From Acidobacteriota bacterium (GTDB lineage: Bacteria > Acidobacteriota > Blastocatellia > Pyrinomonadales > Pyrinomonadaceae): DNA of 64,000 nt. Position numbers and translations under genes: made by a program. Below the pieces are notes generated by a model, which did no database searches, was not told where the DNA came from, and saw nothing but the letters and a program-made list of their open reading frames with translations. Positions within the stretch are counted from its first letter, which is position 1, and every line of letters starts with the position of its first letter. The DNA is taken from contig QHXI01000065.1 of the NCBI GenBank assembly GCA_003222895.1, positions 1 through 64,000 of the forward strand, written 5' to 3'. Positions 14,148-22,606 of the stretch are shown here, in pieces.

Positions 14148-14333
14148 CTGTATGAACAAAGTCGAGCTTACTCTGCTCTCAGCTTCTCTGGTCACTTTTC
14201 CAGACCAACTGAATTCCACAGCTCAAACCCAGTTAGAATGCCAAGGCTTCTCTCTGTTGGATCGCGAAACCTTGGAGAATTGGGAAGCTTTGGCAGCTTC
14301 TGTTGGTCCCAAAGGGGAAAAGGTAAATTACAA
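14148..14333 (+). other. Leader of the RRM gene with an overlapping upstream frame
   Basis: A 63-codon frame (14152-14343, beginning [14 protein letters not shown]) fills the leader and overlaps the RRM start by ten bases. Its ATG falls at or before the predicted transcription start, so it may not be translated. A TCTGG/CCAGA hairpin is present. Long structured leaders are common for cold-induced RNA-binding protein genes; control here is inference. Confidence 0.3.
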
Positions 14334-14627
14334 ATGTCTATGAAACTTTATGTTGGAAATCTCTCGTTCGACACCACGAGTGGCGATTTGCAGACTCTGT
14401 TCGCGCAAGTGGGCACAGTCGAAAGCGTCTCGTTGATTGAAGATCGCGAAACCGGTCGCTCACGCGGCTTCGGTTTTGTTGAGATGCAAACCAAAGAAGA
14501 AGGCGCGGCGGCCGTCGCCCAGTTTAACGGCAAGGAAGTCGGCGGACGTGCGCTGAAAGTTAATGAAGCCAAGCCCCGCGAAAATCGCGGTGGCGGTGGT
14601 GGTTTCGGCGGCGGGTCGCGCTATTAA
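14334..14627 (+). CDS. RRM-type RNA-binding protein, glycine-rich tail
   Basis: A 97-residue protein with one RNA-recognition motif. RNP2 is KLYVGNLSF at the N-terminus and RNP1 is [10 protein letters not shown] near residues 41-50, both carrying the aromatic residues that stack on RNA. The C-terminus (about 80-97) is glycine-rich. This is the same architecture as the cold-inducible Rbp proteins of cyanobacteria. The start is the ATG at 14334, immediately before the RRM. A strong terminator follows. Confidence 0.92.
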
Positions 14628-15899: not shown

Positions 15900-16760
15900 A
15901 TGAAAATCAAGATCTTCGAGAGGCACGTAGCATTGCTGTTTGCGGCTGCGGTTCTCGTTGTAGGCGGATTCAACTTCTCGAATGCTTGCGCACAGGATCG
16001 GCGTGGCGGAGGCGGCAACAGCTCATCAAGGAGTTCTAGCAGCTCCAGCAGCAGCAGCTCGAGCCGCAGCAGCGGCAGCTCAACCAGCAGTAGCCGCAGT
16101 AGCGGCGGGTCGAGCAGAAGCAGTAGCAGTGGCAATGGAAGCGGTCGAAGTTGGGGACGTGGCGATGGTCAGAGCCGCAGTCGCGACACGAGTTCCAGCC
16201 GGAGCACCAGCAGCACGCGCTCTGAGAACCGCACGCGCGAGCGATCGAGCGATCGCAACTCCTCAGTTCTTACTTCCAGCCGCGAACGTGATCTTAATAG
16301 CGAGGGGAATCGACGCCGTGATCGAGATCGGGATCGAAAGCGAGATCGCGACCGTGACGGGGATCGAGATCGCGATCGGCACCTCAACCGGCGTAATGCC
16401 GGCTTTGATCGAAATCGCGACCGCGACGACTGGCGCCGGAGAGAATATGAACGTGGCCGTTTACTTTACCGGACGCGCGCGTATGAGTCTTCGAATTATG
16501 GTTACTACCAATACGGCTCTAACGCGTACGAGCAAGGTTATCAGGACGGCTTATTCACGGGCGCGAGCGATGCCCAACGTGGCCAGAGTTTCGATCCCGA
16601 GCGTTCTCATTTCTACAAGCATGGCGCGGGAGGCTTTCTCTCAATCTTCGGCGGCCAGGCGTCATACAGCATGGCTTATCGCGACGGCTTCCTGCGCGGT
16701 TACGAAGAAGGTTACAGTAACTATCAGAACTATTTCTTCGGCGGGCGCTTTCGTCGATAG
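15900..16760 (+). CDS. Secreted Ser- and Arg/Asp-repeat protein with C-terminal Gly/Tyr domain (paralogue 1)
   Basis: AAGGAGG precedes the ATG at 15900. The 286-residue product has a signal peptide ending near NACAQD, then a Ser-rich tract (about 40-105), then an Arg/Asp mixed-charge region (RDRDRDRK-like, about 130-185). The last ~90 residues form a compact domain with two related halves: AYEQGYQDGLFTGASDA and AYRDGFLRGYEEGY, joined by FDPERSHFYKHGAGG. The same domain ends the proteins at 18952 and 20321. I know no function for it. The pattern suggests a surface or periplasmic protein with a disordered linker. Confidence 0.75.
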   Translation: MKIKIFERHVALLFAAAVLVVGGFNFSNACAQDRRGGGGNSSSRSSSSSSSSSSSRSSGSSTSSSRSSGGSSRSSSSGNGSGRSWGRGDGQSRSRDTSSSRSTSSTRSENRTRERSSDRNSSVLTSSRERDLNSEGNRRRDRDRDRKRDRDRDGDRDRDRHLNRRNAGFDRNRDRDDWRRREYERGRLLYRTRAYESSNYGYYQYGSNAYEQGYQDGLFTGASDAQRGQSFDPERSHFYKHGAGGFLSIFGGQASYSMAYRDGFLRGYEEGYSNYQNYFFGGRFRR

Positions 16761-16796
16761 TGCGCCTATGCGACAGGTATGGCCCCGCTCCAATCA

Positions 16797-17186
16797 TCAC
16801 CCGTTGCGCACGATGGCCGCGTAGATCGCCACCAGAGTTATGGCAGCGCCAATGCCAACCACTATTAGGACATTTCTTGCGATGGAGTGTCCGCGGTTGT
16901 CGTCGACGCTCTTCACGTCCGAATATTTTATTGTGGTAGACGCGTCGCTCTTGCGATCGCGTATGACGAAGTCTTCATCGCCGGCGCTGTAAACGTAACC
17001 CTTCACTTTCGAGCCGTCGTTACGCGTGATTGTCGCGCGCGCTTTCGATCCAACGCCGAGCTTCGCCACGCTCTTCCTGGCATGGTCGATTTTCGCGGAT
17101 GTGTTCTCGGTCTTCTGTCCACCCAGAGCTTGCATGAGAGGTGTGAGCAGCAACAAGAGTGAAAGTAAATAGACGAGTTTCTTCAT
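16797..17186 (-). CDS. Membrane-anchored Sm-like domain protein
   Basis: The ATG at 17186 has GGAG four bases ahead. The 129-residue product has a signal sequence (MKKLVYLLSLLLLLTPLMQA) and a central beta domain: RATITRNDGSKVKGYVYSAG, then DFVIRDRKSDASTTIKYSDV, which matches the strand order of an Sm/LSM barrel. It ends with a C-terminal hydrophobic helix (NVLIVVGIGAAITLVAIYAA). An exported Sm-like fold would not act on RNA, so a structural role is more likely. It lies between secreted-protein genes, in the opposite direction. Confidence 0.65.
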   Translation of the reverse strand: MKKLVYLLSLLLLLTPLMQALGGQKTENTSAKIDHARKSVAKLGVGSKARATITRNDGSKVKGYVYSAGDEDFVIRDRKSDASTTIKYSDVKSVDDNRGHSIARNVLIVVGIGAAITLVAIYAAIVRNG

Positions 17187-17410
17187 GATTCTCCGATCGT
17201 TTAGTTAATTGATTTTGATTTGATGAGAAATTTCATAGCTCTCTTCAACGAAGCCGTAGTGCAATGGTGATGCCAGCGCTCCAATTGTTGAGTTTGCGCG
17301 ACAATCGATGAACTGTGCGTGATCGCGGTCACGTCCAAATTAATGATTGGTGCAAAGATCGTCCGACTGTTGAAAGGTTAGTCTGACCGTGCAGGCACAG
17401 ATGCCCGCGC

Positions 17411-18229
17411 TCAATCGAGATTGCGTAGCGCGAGCACTTCTTCCGCCGCGGTGCGGTCGCCGGTGCAGCTGATTCGCCGCGGCGCGCTTAGCTTGATTAG
17501 CTTAAAGTCCAGATCGCGGTACAGTTTCAGAATTCGCGGTGTTGCCTGGTTCGAAAGAATGACTGGACCCGCGTGTTGCGCCAGCCACTCAGCGGTTCTG
17601 AGTTGATCATTCCAACTGAACCCCCCTTTTGAATAATGCGTGAACTCGACGTCGTACGGCGGATCGGCGTAGACGAAATCATCGGGTTGAAGCTTCACGC
17701 GATCGAATCTCATGTTTGAAAATTTCCAATTCGCCAGCACCGTTTTGTAATCGGTAAAGTCGCGCCGGTAATTGACGGTCGCGTACTTGCCAAACGGCAC
17801 GTTGAATTCGCCCGAGCTATTGAACCGACAGAGACCGTTATAGCCGGTGCGATTCAAATAATAGAAAAGCGAAGCAGCCTCTTTGGTGTTCACTTGCCCA
17901 GCTTGCAGGCGTACGTTGAAGCGTTGGCGATGTTTGTAGAAGAGCGCCTGGTTGTAGCGCATGTCGATATCGATGTTCAGCCCGCGCTTTAACCAACGAT
18001 AAAAGTTGACGACGTGCGGGTTCACGTCGTTGAGCAGTGCTCGTTCAGGCATCAAGCCCAGCGCGACCGCGAGTCCGCCACAAAACGGTTCGACCAGGCG
18101 GCGATGATTCTCATGCTCCCAATATTTTCTAAGATGAGGTAATTGCCAGCGCTTACCTCCGGCCCATTTCAGCGGCGGAAGTAACGCGTCATCGTGTGCG
18201 CGGGCAAGTCTGTCGGCGGGCTGGGTCAT
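17411..18229 (-). CDS. DNA adenine methyltransferase (Dam/D12 class)
   Basis: Motif I is LKWAGGKRWQL and the FCGG (VEPFCGGLAVALGL) segment follows; the catalytic motif IV is DPPY (FVYADPPYDVEF). These define N6-adenine methyltransferases of the D12 class. The 272-residue length from the ATG at 18229 fits. A GTG at 18301 would add 24 residues and cannot be excluded. No restriction enzyme gene is adjacent, so it is an orphan methylase; target sequence unknown. Confidence 0.88.
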   Translation of the reverse strand: MTQPADRLARAHDDALLPPLKWAGGKRWQLPHLRKYWEHENHRRLVEPFCGGLAVALGLMPERALLNDVNPHVVNFYRWLKRGLNIDIDMRYNQALFYKHRQRFNVRLQAGQVNTKEAASLFYYLNRTGYNGLCRFNSSGEFNVPFGKYATVNYRRDFTDYKTVLANWKFSNMRFDRVKLQPDDFVYADPPYDVEFTHYSKGGFSWNDQLRTAEWLAQHAGPVILSNQATPRILKLYRDLDFKLIKLSAPRRISCTGDRTAAEEVLALRNLD

Positions 18230-18414
18230 CTGCGCGGCCGCATCGTAACACGTTCCGCGACTCAGTTCGTATGAAGCAAAGCCTTGGCACGACAGATGCA
18301 CCTCTCACCCCGATCACTAACAAAATAAGGGCTGCGGCGGCGTAGCTGTTATAAATGCGAACAGTTGGTTGCCGCGAATTAGAACGAATTTGAATTCACG
18401 TAAACGGAGGGATC

Positions 18415-18714
18415 ATGAAACGACAATTGAAAAAGGCAGTGGCGTTAACGCTGCTATTTCTTACTCTCCTATTTTCGGTTGGGCCAATAACATCGGCGCA
18501 AACGGTGCGTCGGCACCGTCGTTATCACAGGACGTTTTGGCAGAAGCATCGCGACAAATTAACTGTGGCCGGCAGCACGCTTGGGGGCGCGGCAATCGGC
18601 GGCATCGCTGGTGGAAAGAAGGGCGCGGCGATTGGCTCGCTGGTCGGCGCGGGTAGCGGCGCGCTGTACACGTACAAGATTAGAAAGCGTCATCGCCACT
18701 ATCGACGATACTGA
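18415..18714 (+). CDS. Secreted glycine-zipper protein, 99 aa
   Basis: GGAGGG precedes the ATG. A signal peptide (LTLLFLTLLFSVGPITSAQT) is followed by a very basic region, then a glycine zipper: STLGGAAIGGIAGGKKGAAI and GSLVGAGSGALY, a GxxxG repeat pattern of the type that inserts in membranes, and a basic tail (RKRHRHYRRY). The length is typical of glycine-zipper proteins with one hairpin. It lies in the cluster of small secreted proteins. A weak hairpin with five T follows at 18800-18828. Confidence 0.75.
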   Translation: MKRQLKKAVALTLLFLTLLFSVGPITSAQTVRRHRRYHRTFWQKHRDKLTVAGSTLGGAAIGGIAGGKKGAAIGSLVGAGSGALYTYKIRKRHRHYRRY

Positions 18715-18951
18715 TTGGAAGTGAGCAGTTAGCTGTGAGCGGTGAGCAGTAGGCAGAAAGCAGGGCAGCGCACGGACTGCTTGCGCTAGAACTTGAAAGT
18801 GCCGGCGGGCGCTCCTCGCGGCATTTTTCTTTATCGCAATCGCAATCGAGTCACAAGTCGATCGCATGGTTCGCGACACAGTTAGGCATCGCTCGTGCAA
18901 ACCAAGATTATGTGTGCAGCGTCTAAAGTATTAGAACAAGGAGGGAAGATC

Positions 18952-19365
18952 ATGAGAGGAAAATATCTACGTAGATTAGGCGGATTCATCCTCGCGGTGT
19001 TGTTACTCCCTGGAGTCGTGACGTTGCTCTCAAGCAGCACGGCGCAAGCGCAGCGGCGAGTGATTCTCGTCAATCGCCCTTACTATCGAACTTATCGTCC
19101 GTGGGGCTGGGGTTACCGCCCGTGGGGTTACGATCCTTACTTTGATTATTACAGCCGCTACGGACATTACGTGTTCAATAGCTCTGACAGAGCAGCTGAT
19201 CAAGGCTACCACGATGGATTGAGGACGGGGCGTAACGACGAGAAGGATCACAAGACGTACAATCCGCAACGATCGCATTACTATCAGGAAGCCGGCTTCG
19301 GGAACTTCGGTGAGGTTTATCGATCGGGGTTCTTGCGAGGATATGCTGATGGATACCGGGCTTAG
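18952..19365 (+). CDS. Secreted protein with Gly/Tyr domain (paralogue 2, short form)
   Basis: AGGAGGG precedes the ATG at 18952. The product has 137 residues: a signal peptide (GGFILAVLLLPGVVTLL... AQAQ), a Tyr/Trp/Pro-rich segment (TYRPWGWGYRPWGYDPY) and then the same C-terminal domain as the proteins at 15900 and 20321: DQGYHDGLRTG, YNPQRSHYYQEAG and YRSGFLRGYADGYRA. It lacks the Ser-rich and Arg/Asp linkers, so this is the minimal form of the family. A clear terminator follows. Confidence 0.75.
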   Translation: MRGKYLRRLGGFILAVLLLPGVVTLLSSSTAQAQRRVILVNRPYYRTYRPWGWGYRPWGYDPYFDYYSRYGHYVFNSSDRAADQGYHDGLRTGRNDEKDHKTYNPQRSHYYQEAGFGNFGEVYRSGFLRGYADGYRA

Positions 19366-19409
19366 ATTGGAAGCTAAAAAAGGCAAGAGCCGTATCCGTC
19401 AATTGTGAG

Positions 19410-19442
19410 ATGCCGCGAGGAAATTCGCGGCATTTTCTTTTT
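19410..19442 (+). terminator. Intrinsic terminator after paralogue 2
   Basis: ATGCCGCGA and TCGCGGCAT form a nine-pair stem around a six-base loop, followed by a T-rich run. The same stem sequence ends paralogue 3. Confidence 0.85.
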
Positions 19443-19531
19443 GGAAACCGCGCGACCTGGAAAACCGTAAAGGTTTTGGCTTTGCTCCCAGCAAAGATCG
19501 GTTGATAATTTGCGCGAGAGGCTTTCAGCAC

Positions 19532-20218
19532 ATGTTCTGTCCCCAATGTGGCGGTGAATCTGCGGAAGGGCAACACTACTGTCGTTCCTGCGGCACCAAT
19601 CTCAAAGTCATCGGCAAAGTCGTCACCTTCGCTGACGCGATTTCAAAGTCTGATGGCGTGCCGACGAAGGTTAAAGAGAAGATCGGTCACGTCGCCGATG
19701 AAGTCTCGCGCGCGATGGAGAAGGTAAATTCCGAAATCGCGCGTGGTTCAGGTGCGCATCGCCGCTGGTCGTCCTGGCGGAAACAGAAAACAGCCGAAGA
19801 ACGACGTGAGAAACACTTGACGACGGGCACTATTAAGTTCTTTGTCGGCGGCTGCTTGTCGATCTTTCTTTATTTCCTAACGCATGCATTACAACTCAGA
19901 TTGCCTGCGGAGGTAATCGCGGCGGTTCCTTTTGCGATCGATCCGGTGGTGCGAGTGTTCTGGCTGATTGGATTGATTCCGATGCTTTCGGGATTGGGTC
20001 ACATCATCGCGGGATTTGGCATCAAGCCGGAACGCGCAAAGGAGATTCAGTCTCCTGACGCATCGCCGCTGCGGATCGACGTTCCTGCTTCACACAAGAC
20101 GCGAATGGATCCCGAGCTAACGATCGTCTCACGGAATGAGCCCCCTCCGAGCGTAACTGATCGGACGACGAATATTCTCGATCGCGATCAGTCTTTGCGT
20201 ACTCGGGAAACCGGGTGA
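19532..20218 (+). CDS. Zinc-ribbon membrane protein, 228 aa
   Basis: The N-terminus MFCPQCGGESAEGQHYCRSC is a classic double-CxxC zinc ribbon, which fixes the start at 19532. A charged helical region (about 35-100) leads to two hydrophobic helices (about 108-125 and 137-162). The C-terminal 65 residues are polar and probably disordered. Proteins of this layout are common in Acidobacteriota and related phyla and are uncharacterised. Confidence 0.75.
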   Translation: MFCPQCGGESAEGQHYCRSCGTNLKVIGKVVTFADAISKSDGVPTKVKEKIGHVADEVSRAMEKVNSEIARGSGAHRRWSSWRKQKTAEERREKHLTTGTIKFFVGGCLSIFLYFLTHALQLRLPAEVIAAVPFAIDPVVRVFWLIGLIPMLSGLGHIIAGFGIKPERAKEIQSPDASPLRIDVPASHKTRMDPELTIVSRNEPPPSVTDRTTNILDRDQSLRTRETG

Positions 20219-20320
20219 CCGCCCCTGCAACTTGTCGTTGAATTCGCGCCGCGGGAGTATAATGGCGGCACGCCAACTCTTCCCGTTTTCCAACCATCCT
20301 TTCGCCCAAGGAGGAGTGTG

Positions 20321-21403
20321 ATGAAGATAAGAGTTACCGTTCTGAAGGTCAGCTTCCTGGCTTTCGCTTTGCTCGGATTTTTCCTGGCGTCATCGCCGCG
20401 CCTCAGGGCTCAGGATTTGAAGCCTGAGCGGCCTGAACCTGTTACGCCAAGTTCACCGCCGCCAAGTGCGCCTGAACCAAGTTCACCCGCACCAAGTTCA
20501 CCCGCACCAAGTTCACCGGCACCGAGTTCGCCGGCGCCCAGTACGCCCAGCGAACCGAGCCGGAGCAACGACAGCGGTAGCAGTCGCAACAACGACAGCG
20601 GCGGCAATCGTCGCGATGATCCGGTGCGCGAAACTCGCGGCGGCCGTGATAACGATCGTAGTGGATCCGATCGTAGATCCAATAACGATACCTCTGCCCC
20701 AGTGCGCCGCAGCGGTGACGGCAATGGCAGCGACAATCGGCGTGATCGCGCGCCTATAGATAATTCATCCAGCGATGAAAACACTCGCAACCTTGATCGT
20801 AGCCGCGATAAGGATCGCGATCGTGATAAGGACCGAGGCCGCGACGGGGACAAGCGTTGGGACGGTGACAAGGATCGCGACAAGGATCGCAATAAAGATC
20901 GCGACAAGGATCGCAATAAGGATCGCGACCGAGATCGTGACCGAGATCGCGACCGAGATCGCGACCGAGATCGCGACCGGGACCACGACCGCGATCGTGA
21001 CAGAGACAAGGATCGAGACAAGGACAGGGATCGGGGACGCGTCGGTCGGCGCGAGAGGCACGATTACCGCAATCGCTCTCTTTACGACGTCACCGATAAC
21101 GATTTCTACACGACGATTTACGATGACCGGAACTATGGGGGCTATGGTTACGCCCGGAGCGCTTACGATCAGGGTTACGAAGACGGGCTCTTCACCGGCG
21201 CAAGCGACGCGCGCCGCGGCCAAAACTACGATCCGGATCGCTCGCACTTTTACAAGAGCGGCGCTGGTGGTTACAGCCCCGTTTACGGCCGGCGGGACGT
21301 TTATCAGCAGGCGTATCGCGACGGCTTCCTGCGCGGGTACGATGAAGGCTATCGAAACTGGCAAAGATATTTTAGCGGCGGGAGCTTTAATCCCCGGCCG
21401 TGA
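20321..21403 (+). CDS. Secreted Pro/Ser- and Arg/Asp-repeat protein with Gly/Tyr domain (paralogue 3)
   Basis: GGAGGA precedes an ATG at 20321 (a GTG lies one codon earlier). After a signal peptide (VSFLAFALLGFFLASSPRLRAQ) come a 15-bp tandem repeat encoding SSPAP units, an Asn/Ser/Arg-rich stretch, and an unusually long Arg/Asp/Lys dipeptide region (about residues 165-245) encoded by 6- and 12-bp repeats. The C-terminal ~90 residues are the shared domain: AYDQGYEDGLFTGASDARRG, YDPDRSHFYKSGAGG and AYRDGFLRGYDEGYRNW, very close to paralogue 1. The linker is mixed-charge and should be extended. Long shadow frames here come from the low complexity. Confidence 0.78.
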   Translation: MKIRVTVLKVSFLAFALLGFFLASSPRLRAQDLKPERPEPVTPSSPPPSAPEPSSPAPSSPAPSSPAPSSPAPSTPSEPSRSNDSGSSRNNDSGGNRRDDPVRETRGGRDNDRSGSDRRSNNDTSAPVRRSGDGNGSDNRRDRAPIDNSSSDENTRNLDRSRDKDRDRDKDRGRDGDKRWDGDKDRDKDRNKDRDKDRNKDRDRDRDRDRDRDRDRDRDRDHDRDRDRDKDRDKDRDRGRVGRRERHDYRNRSLYDVTDNDFYTTIYDDRNYGGYGYARSAYDQGYEDGLFTGASDARRGQNYDPDRSHFYKSGAGGYSPVYGRRDVYQQAYRDGFLRGYDEGYRNWQRYFSGGSFNPRP

Positions 21404-21426
21404 AGCAGCCAAGACCGCATTAGGCG

Positions 21427-21460
21427 ATGCCGCGATCGGAAACGGTCGCGGCATTATTGT
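21427..21460 (+). terminator. Intrinsic terminator after paralogue 3
   Basis: ATGCCGCGA (21427-21435) pairs with TCGCGGCAT (21446-21454), then TATTGTTT. The stem is identical to that after paralogue 2. Confidence 0.75.
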
Positions 21461-21580: not shown

Positions 21581-22606
21581 ATGGGAAAAGCAGAAGGCAG
21601 TAGGCAGAAGGCAGTGAGCAGAAGACTCGCGTTGGTGTGCGGATCGCTGGCGGTGTTGCTTTCATTAGTCAGTGGCGCCGCCGCTCAAGAGATGGATTCG
21701 CATCATCATATGATTGCCGATCCGACGATCACGATGCCGGATGAAACTATCACGCAGGATTGGGCCAAAGATCGGCTCGCTAAATCGCCGCGGCATCGCG
21801 AGTGGGTGAAGGTGAAGAACGGCAACCGCGAAGTCAACACCTTCGTTGTCTATCCTGAGAGCAATAAGAAAGCTACCGCGGTCGTAGTCATTCACGAAAT
21901 CTTCGGCATGAGTGATTGGGTGCAGGAGTTGAGCGACGAACTCGCCGAAGCTGGCTACATTGCCATCGCTCCGGATCTTCTTTCCGGTATGGGGCCGAAC
22001 GGTGGCGGCACTCCGGAAATTGCCGCTACCGGAAACAACGCAGTCGGTCTGGCAATTCGCGCTTTGCCGCCGGATCAGCTCGCCGGCGACCTAAACGCAG
22101 TTGCTGACTATGTTTCAAAACTACCGGCGGCGAATGGCAAAGTCGCGGTCGGCGGTTTCTGTTGGGGCGGCAGCACAACTTTCTTTTTTGCCACGCGCCG
22201 TCCATCGCTGAAAGCCGCATTTATCTTCTACGGTTCGGCGCCGAGTAACAGCGCGCAAGGCCAACCATACGCGGTTGATAAAATGGCCCTGGCGAAAATT
22301 GGTGCTCCCGTTTACGGCTTCTATGCTGAAAACGACATGCGCATCGACGCAACGATTCCTCCGACGGTTGATGCGATGAAAGAATTGAACAAGATGTACG
22401 ACCCGGTGACTTATGCAGGCGCGGGACATGGCTTCATGCGCGCAGGCGAAGCGCCGGCTCCGGTCGCCCCCGCGACCACCGGAAACGTGGATGGCGACAA
22501 AGCCGCAATAGACAAGTACAACAAAGATCTGACCGCGTACAAAGCAAACAAGAAAGCGCGCGACGATGCCTGGGTCAGGTGGAAAGCAATTCTCGCGAAA
22601 CTCTAA
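21581..22606 (+). CDS. Secreted dienelactone hydrolase-family protein
   Basis: A 341-residue alpha/beta hydrolase. The nucleophile is Cys194 in GGFCWGG, as in dienelactone hydrolases; AENDMRID supplies the likely acid and GAGHGFMR the histidine near residue 284. A signal peptide (LALVCGSLAVLLSLVSGAAA) directs export. The first 15 residues before it are encoded by five 7-bp repeats (21590-21624), an unusual N-terminal extension; an internal start cannot be excluded. GGAGGGG precedes the ATG. The substrate is unknown. Confidence 0.9.
   Translation: MGKAEGSRQKAVSRRLALVCGSLAVLLSLVSGAAAQEMDSHHHMIADPTITMPDETITQDWAKDRLAKSPRHREWVKVKNGNREVNTFVVYPESNKKATAVVVIHEIFGMSDWVQELSDELAEAGYIAIAPDLLSGMGPNGGGTPEIAATGNNAVGLAIRALPPDQLAGDLNAVADYVSKLPAANGKVAVGGFCWGGSTTFFFATRRPSLKAAFIFYGSAPSNSAQGQPYAVDKMALAKIGAPVYGFYAENDMRIDATIPPTVDAMKELNKMYDPVTYAGAGHGFMRAGEAPAPVAPATTGNVDGDKAAIDKYNKDLTAYKANKKARDDAWVRWKAILAKL

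Follow-up and report, generated by a model that had tools for sequence, protein, structure and literature searches.

A Gly/Tyr-rich domain with a predicted helical hairpin fold in three putative exported proteins of an acidobacterium

The window analyzed here is a stretch of 64,000 nucleotides from a soil bacterium of the Acidobacteriota (contig QHXI01000065.1, positions 1 to 64,000), in which three forward-strand genes, A, B, and C, encode putative exported proteins ending in a common domain. Gene A (15900..16760, 286 amino acids) encodes a signal sequence, a Ser/Arg-rich and then Arg/Asp (RD) linker, and the domain (16518..16724, located by a search of the organism's own genome). Gene B (18952..19365, 137 amino acids) is the minimal form, with a signal sequence, a Tyr-rich spacer, and a domain whose central loop is shorter (19189..19362, from the own-genome profile search). 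Gene C (20321..21403, 360 amino acids) has a signal sequence, a Pro/Ser tract, a long RD/KD tract, and the domain (21158..21361). Each gene starts with an ATG preceded by a GGAGG-type ribosome site, and by eye each has a Sec-type signal sequence, with junctions ACA/Q, AQA/Q, and LRA/Q, respectively. A first-pass annotation made from the letters alone had proposed three genes with a common C-terminal domain, and all three open reading frames (ORFs) and the motifs that it quoted are present.

The common domain is about 69 residues long and follows the pattern GYxxGxxxGxxD ... YxPxRSHYY ... YRxGFxRGYxxGY. With the A domain as query, a search of the own genome recovered C (68% identity, E 2e-28) and B (50% identity, E 1e-8), values that chance does not explain, along with five more places. 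A second query added one copy, giving nine domain copies in eight genes, one of which carries two. An alignment of 40 sequences shows invariant or nearly invariant Gly at i, i+4, and i+8 in both halves, together with nearly invariant Tyr and Phe, one invariant Arg, and one nearly invariant Asp. The domains of the window carry the family pattern, GX3GX3G in both halves, and the first helix of B fits GY-x2-G-x3-G. The family profile contains the window's own domains; the pairwise matches of A to B and C are independent of it.

We found no catalogued family for this domain. Pfam gave nothing above cut-off for the domain of A, B, or C or for family members, a PDB sequence search gave no match, and NCBIfam matches to the domain were weak. 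PHROGs yielded weak matches alone (best E 3e-4), to RIIB and to families whose function is unknown, a plasmid search with the domain gave no match, and a word search of the open-access literature found no description of it. Full-length A and C matched serine-rich and SD-repeat adhesin models in NCBIfam far below cut-off, which reflects linker composition. For the glycine-zipper families (PF13488/PF13441), A, B, and C had no Pfam match; only a neighboring gene at 18415 matches. The first-pass annotation knew no description of the domain, and this stands after a profile search and a structure prediction: no characterized family was matched, disorder was not predicted, and conservation extends well beyond the strain. 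An uncatalogued family with a predicted fold is thus well supported.

The AlphaFold2 model of the 91-residue C domain region contains a helix at residues 6 to 29, a short helix at 40 to 44, and a helix at 56 to 84, with a mean predicted local distance difference test score (pLDDT) of 80.8 and a predicted template modeling score (pTM) of 0.71. The long helices score around 90 and the middle 76 to 79. On this model, the C domain would be a helical hairpin: both helices would bear GX3GX3G, and a Tyr/Pro/Arg-rich loop would join them. A longer, Gln/Arg-type region was modeled from an own-genome gene on another contig (C139) plus 25 relatives and reached a pLDDT of 90.3 and a pTM of 0.86. Its fold is not certain because two of the five models were far worse (pLDDT about 61). 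In this prediction, the chain opens with two helices at the N terminus and a beta-hairpin; the two long helices of the C model come next, separated by a short helix, and are followed by another beta-hairpin and a final helix. Foldseek against the PDB found nothing at E <= 0.001 for either model, which by itself does not establish a new fold. In VIA, PsaL of photosystem I, C5a, and ribosome modulation factor (RMF) appeared for the C model at Z 4 to 6, the level of generic helical pairs, and the longer model had no row above Z 2.5. Sequence matches of the longer type to citrate synthase and Cas1 in the PDB (E about 1) were attributed to chance.

The two Gly/Tyr-rich halves had been read as an internal duplication. 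The halves themselves hold up, each forming one GX3GX3G helix in the model. Aligned to each other with hhalign, they score 22.4 over 10 columns (GY/F-x2-G-x3), against a mean of 7.7 and a maximum of 17.1 for 60 column shuffles. However, all but one of 25 circular shifts of the halves (scores 16 to 23) also exceed the shuffle maximum. The signal is thus the short motif itself, and convergence on a GX3 helix fits as well as duplication.

Glycine at every fourth helix residue is shared with Yae1/Lto1 (PF09811, Yae1_N). In yeast, mutating the deca-GX3 glycines weakens formation of the Lto1-Yae1 complex, and deca-GX3 is defined as one motif of about ten GX3 units spanning 40 residues (PMC4523923). 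Yae1/Lto1 is a cytosolic Fe-S adaptor with that single run, whereas the proteins studied here appear exported and have two separate runs of three glycines with a loop between. Thirty-three of the 40 family members match Yae1_N weakly (best E 1e-4), C does not match, and the own genome has no match at E <= 1 (cut-off 27.5 bits), so membership is not supported. FliH/YscL also have GxxxG helix repeats (PMC2674601) but are cytosolic regulators of export ATPases. The FliH NCBIfam matches are weak (best E 2e-4 among the 40 members, none for C), and the signal-like N termini and the lack of flagellar genes among neighboring ORFs speak against a role in a flagellar or type III export cluster. These faint resemblances would be explained if the domain were an adaptor like Yae1/Lto1 or FliH, docking on an ATPase or an export machine as its partner, but with scores below the Pfam cut-off, glycine runs of three rather than ten, proteins that look exported, and no ATPase partner nearby, we consider this highly improbable. 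RMF (PF04957) is likewise small, with two helices and a GYxxG helix, and differs as a cytosolic ribosome binder. It was rejected: its best own-genome score is 13.2 bits against a cut-off of 27.9, at other places, and hhalign with Escherichia coli RMF gives 5% probability over 13 columns. Its VIA rows (Z 5.2 for 9iot_y and 4.2 for 2jrm) stand among unrelated rows of like Z.

Upstream of the domain, the linkers of A and C differ. The C linker contains 69 D-R/D-K dipeptides against a shuffle mean of 28 (maximum, 40) and an alternating run of 22 residues against a shuffle maximum of 8. Its Pro/Ser tract is a 15-bp tandem repeat (20447..20535, forward strand), and its RD/KD tract consists of 12-bp-based tandem repeats (20867..21033, forward strand). 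The A linker contains 24 such dipeptides against a shuffle mean of 9 (maximum, 18), and its longest alternating run, 6, lies within the shuffle range; A is Ser/Arg rich with a modest RD part. The earlier description of very long Arg/Asp regions in two copies therefore applies to C, which is strongly nonrandom, and to a lesser degree to A, which is moderately so. The likeness to eukaryotic RD-rich proteins is one of composition and nothing beyond it.

Across the family, linkers ending in the domain are rich in Ser/Arg, Pro/Ser/RD, Gln/Arg, or Gly/Tyr/Asn. In a second subfamily (L007, L031, L035, L041, L064-L067, and L069), the domain directly follows the signal peptide and precedes a conserved region of about 200 amino acids that includes a glycine-zipper-like stretch. 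Of 136 ORFs, 11 carry the domain twice. A rough hydrophobicity rule assigns a signal peptide-like N terminus to 119 of the 136 domain ORFs against 241 of 1,066 other ORFs, and several of the misses are truncated by contig ends. One doubtful lipobox-like match was seen among the ORFs, and we do not claim lipoprotein anchoring.

The combination of a signal sequence, a long charged Asp-rich region, and a small C-terminal domain could also describe a periplasmic buffer for metals or small ligands, with a charged disordered region to bind ions and a compact domain for docking to a transporter. RcnB is a periplasmic protein with a signal peptide and a charged or disordered region. A second precedent is SilE, a disordered periplasmic metal sponge (PMC5008109). 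Both resemble the proteins of the window in this layout, but the domain has no conserved metal-ligand residues. Its invariant and nearly invariant positions hold Gly, Tyr, Phe, Arg, and a single Asp, and a ligand set of His, Cys, or Met is lacking. Nor is the linker chemistry conserved, RcnB is not among the Pfam matches at E <= 10, and no metal transporter is seen among neighboring ORFs. We regard a buffering role as unlikely.

Arg/Tyr-rich surfaces might instead bind anionic or aromatic polymers, such as lipopolysaccharide, exopolysaccharide, or extracellular DNA, with the linker adding charge and with no helix-helix assembly. The Tyr/Arg-rich YxPxRSHYY loop is kept in A, B, and C, and the A linker has a net charge of +18, both in favor of this explanation. 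The C linker, however, has a net charge of 0, and other paralogues replace the RSHYY loop but retain the glycines, which leaves polymer binding of this kind rather doubtful.

The profile matches all seven genomes of the genus, 35 of 40 relatives (with up to 12 copies per genome), and at least 87 of 297 genomes of the phylum, a lower bound since scoring covered only the 20 best candidates of each genome. Outside the phylum, it matches 20 of 99 genomes of the family Lysobacteraceae, sampled around a Pseudoxanthomonas, and 5 of 200 from the phylum of a Gemmatimonadota metagenome-assembled genome (MAG). Among 274 genomes from the class of the Pseudoxanthomonas seed, the seed genome alone matched, which indicates that the profile is specific. 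A scan of named genomes with the conserved Gln/Arg-type alignment, which thus speaks to the spread of that type and not of the RD type, kept 80 loci. Most are in Acidobacteriota; the others are in Pseudoxanthomonas, Luteimonas, Lysobacter, two Gemmatimonadota, and three MAGs labeled Deltaproteobacteria. Cultured Lysobacteraceae (L112, L114, L122, L124, L141, and L145) carry the Gln/Arg-tethered form with long Gln/Arg-rich regions. The relatives in Pseudoxanthomonas, Luteimonas, and Lysobacter (L112, L114, L122, and L141) have a clearly homologous domain but differ in the Gln/Arg tether, the predicted flanking beta-hairpins, and a single copy per genome in all four. In a tree of 76 sequences, the Lysobacteraceae rows cluster with support 93/80, and a single acidobacterial row branches from that open fork. 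This pattern is compatible with either a single ancient transfer or vertical inheritance followed by loss, and because the root is a midpoint, it gives no direction of transfer.

We compared orthologue pairs for domain and linker separately. In the domain, the nonsynonymous rate (dN) is 0.06 to 0.23, and the synonymous rate (dS) is mostly saturated or high, so dN/dS is low only in a qualitative sense. In the linkers, dN is 0.12 to 0.48, with lower identity and variable length in most pairs; in one pair, the upstream part of B roughly equals its domain in conservation. Purifying selection acts on the domain, and the linkers are free to vary. These data bear on whether the genes are low-complexity, fast-expanding secreted genes of little specific function, whose Gly/Tyr and RD tracts arose as side effects of expanding repeats. 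The tandem repeats underlying the RD and Pro/Ser tracts and the gain and loss of copies within the genus are in keeping with such an origin. Given a domain that is under purifying selection, confidently folded in prediction, and kept across phyla, we consider it quite unlikely.

Several other genes lie between A, B, and C. A small exported or membrane protein (16797..17186, reverse strand) is retained in relatives; it has no Pfam match, and its earlier label, Sm-like, is thus unverified. The glycine-zipper protein reported between the genes was borne out as an exported protein at 18415..18714 (forward strand; PF13488, 26.3 bits against a cut-off of 25). Absent from the earlier description were a D12-class DNA adenine methyltransferase (17411..18301, reverse strand), named from sequence and outside the family, and a zinc-ribbon membrane protein (19502..20218, forward strand; true start probably ATG 19532), whose best Pfam match, DZR, is below cut-off. 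The methyltransferase is kept in L070 and L071 at 75 to 79% identity, and no restriction enzyme was recognized among neighboring ORFs. Strong terminator-like hairpins of 13 pairs follow B (19407..19436, forward strand) and C (21426..21455, forward strand).

Within the genus, the order OsmC, (A), small membrane protein, D12 methylase, glycine zipper, B, zinc ribbon, C, (extra copy), dienelactone hydrolase, and metallo-beta-lactamase (MBL) fold is largely kept; the OsmC, D12, hydrolase, and MBL names reflect sequence appearance. A is missing at its position in the block in G301 and G297, and G298 has no B in the stretch examined. A fourth domain copy, absent from the window, is found in the interval from C to the hydrolase in G301, G297, and G298; in G300, it adjoins the hydrolase. 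Across the four relatives, this copy is at L070 8581-9231, L071 7665-8360, L072 8365-9045, and L076 1199-1597. Copy number thus varies within the genus. B and C, each with its own terminator-like hairpin, are probably separate transcription units, and together with the gain and loss of A and the extra copy, this speaks against a single, fixed operon for assembly. What is conserved is a chromosomal neighborhood rather than a proven operon.

Two further features flank the block. Upstream, at 14238-14627 (forward strand), is a small protein of the RNA recognition motif type with a Gly-rich tail, named from sequence, with matches in L071 and L081. Downstream, a short interspersed repeat, (A/G)GCAGAAGGCAGTAGGCAGAAGGCAG, occupies 21589-21614 at the start of a dienelactone-hydrolase-like ORF (21581-22606), whose true start may lie downstream. 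The 20-base core of the repeat occurs 11 times genome-wide at up to two mismatches, against none for a reversed-pattern control.

We tentatively favor, as a possibility that stops short of probable, the reading that A, B, and C are exported envelope proteins in which a disordered tether ends in a hairpin that pairs with other helices or binds a ligand. The family, its spread, the contrast between a conserved domain and variable linkers, and the predicted hairpin come from computation; the mechanism that follows is inferred. Once the protein had been exported by Sec, its linker would stay disordered and span the periplasm or surface layer, and the hairpin would form the conserved, folded terminus of a tether that varies freely in composition and length across the family. 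The hairpin could associate with another GX3 helix, its own or a paralogue's, or with an envelope ligand through the Tyr/Arg loop. That the GX3 faces may be interaction surfaces has a precedent in the Lto1-Yae1 glycines (PMC4523923). The proteins would then serve the envelope as binding or assembly modules on tethers, with paralogues differing in reach and charge and not in binding target.

Several points weigh against this proposal. The model is a monomer and so does not show self-association, and the glycine faces may pack only within one hairpin, leaving none for assembly. AlphaFold may be overconfident for a sequence this repetitive in Gly and Tyr, with 40 homologues. B and C seem to end in terminators of their own, and no neighboring gene points to a pathway. 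The surface or periplasmic matrix suggested by the first-pass annotation is one possible version of the tethered-hairpin proposal, and a guess. A more ambitious form is somewhat unlikely in our judgment: an undescribed envelope domain with a fold unlike solved structures, a GX3-packed hairpin whose fullest form has two flanking beta-hairpins, expanded by soil bacteria of several phyla on interchangeable disordered tethers as a modular periplasmic or surface scaffold.

As one of many uncharacterized secreted families, this one is ordinary; its breadth, paralogue number, and linker diversity are unusual. Acidobacteriota are abundant in soil, and their envelopes are poorly understood. The domain occurs in every searched genome of the genus and in about 30% of the sampled genomes of the phylum. 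The family is a good target for annotation. Since it is single copy in the tested cultured Pseudoxanthomonas, Luteimonas, and Lysobacter, gene deletion work is feasible outside this hard-to-grow phylum. One folded domain on many unrelated linker chemistries also offers a natural experiment on disordered tethers.

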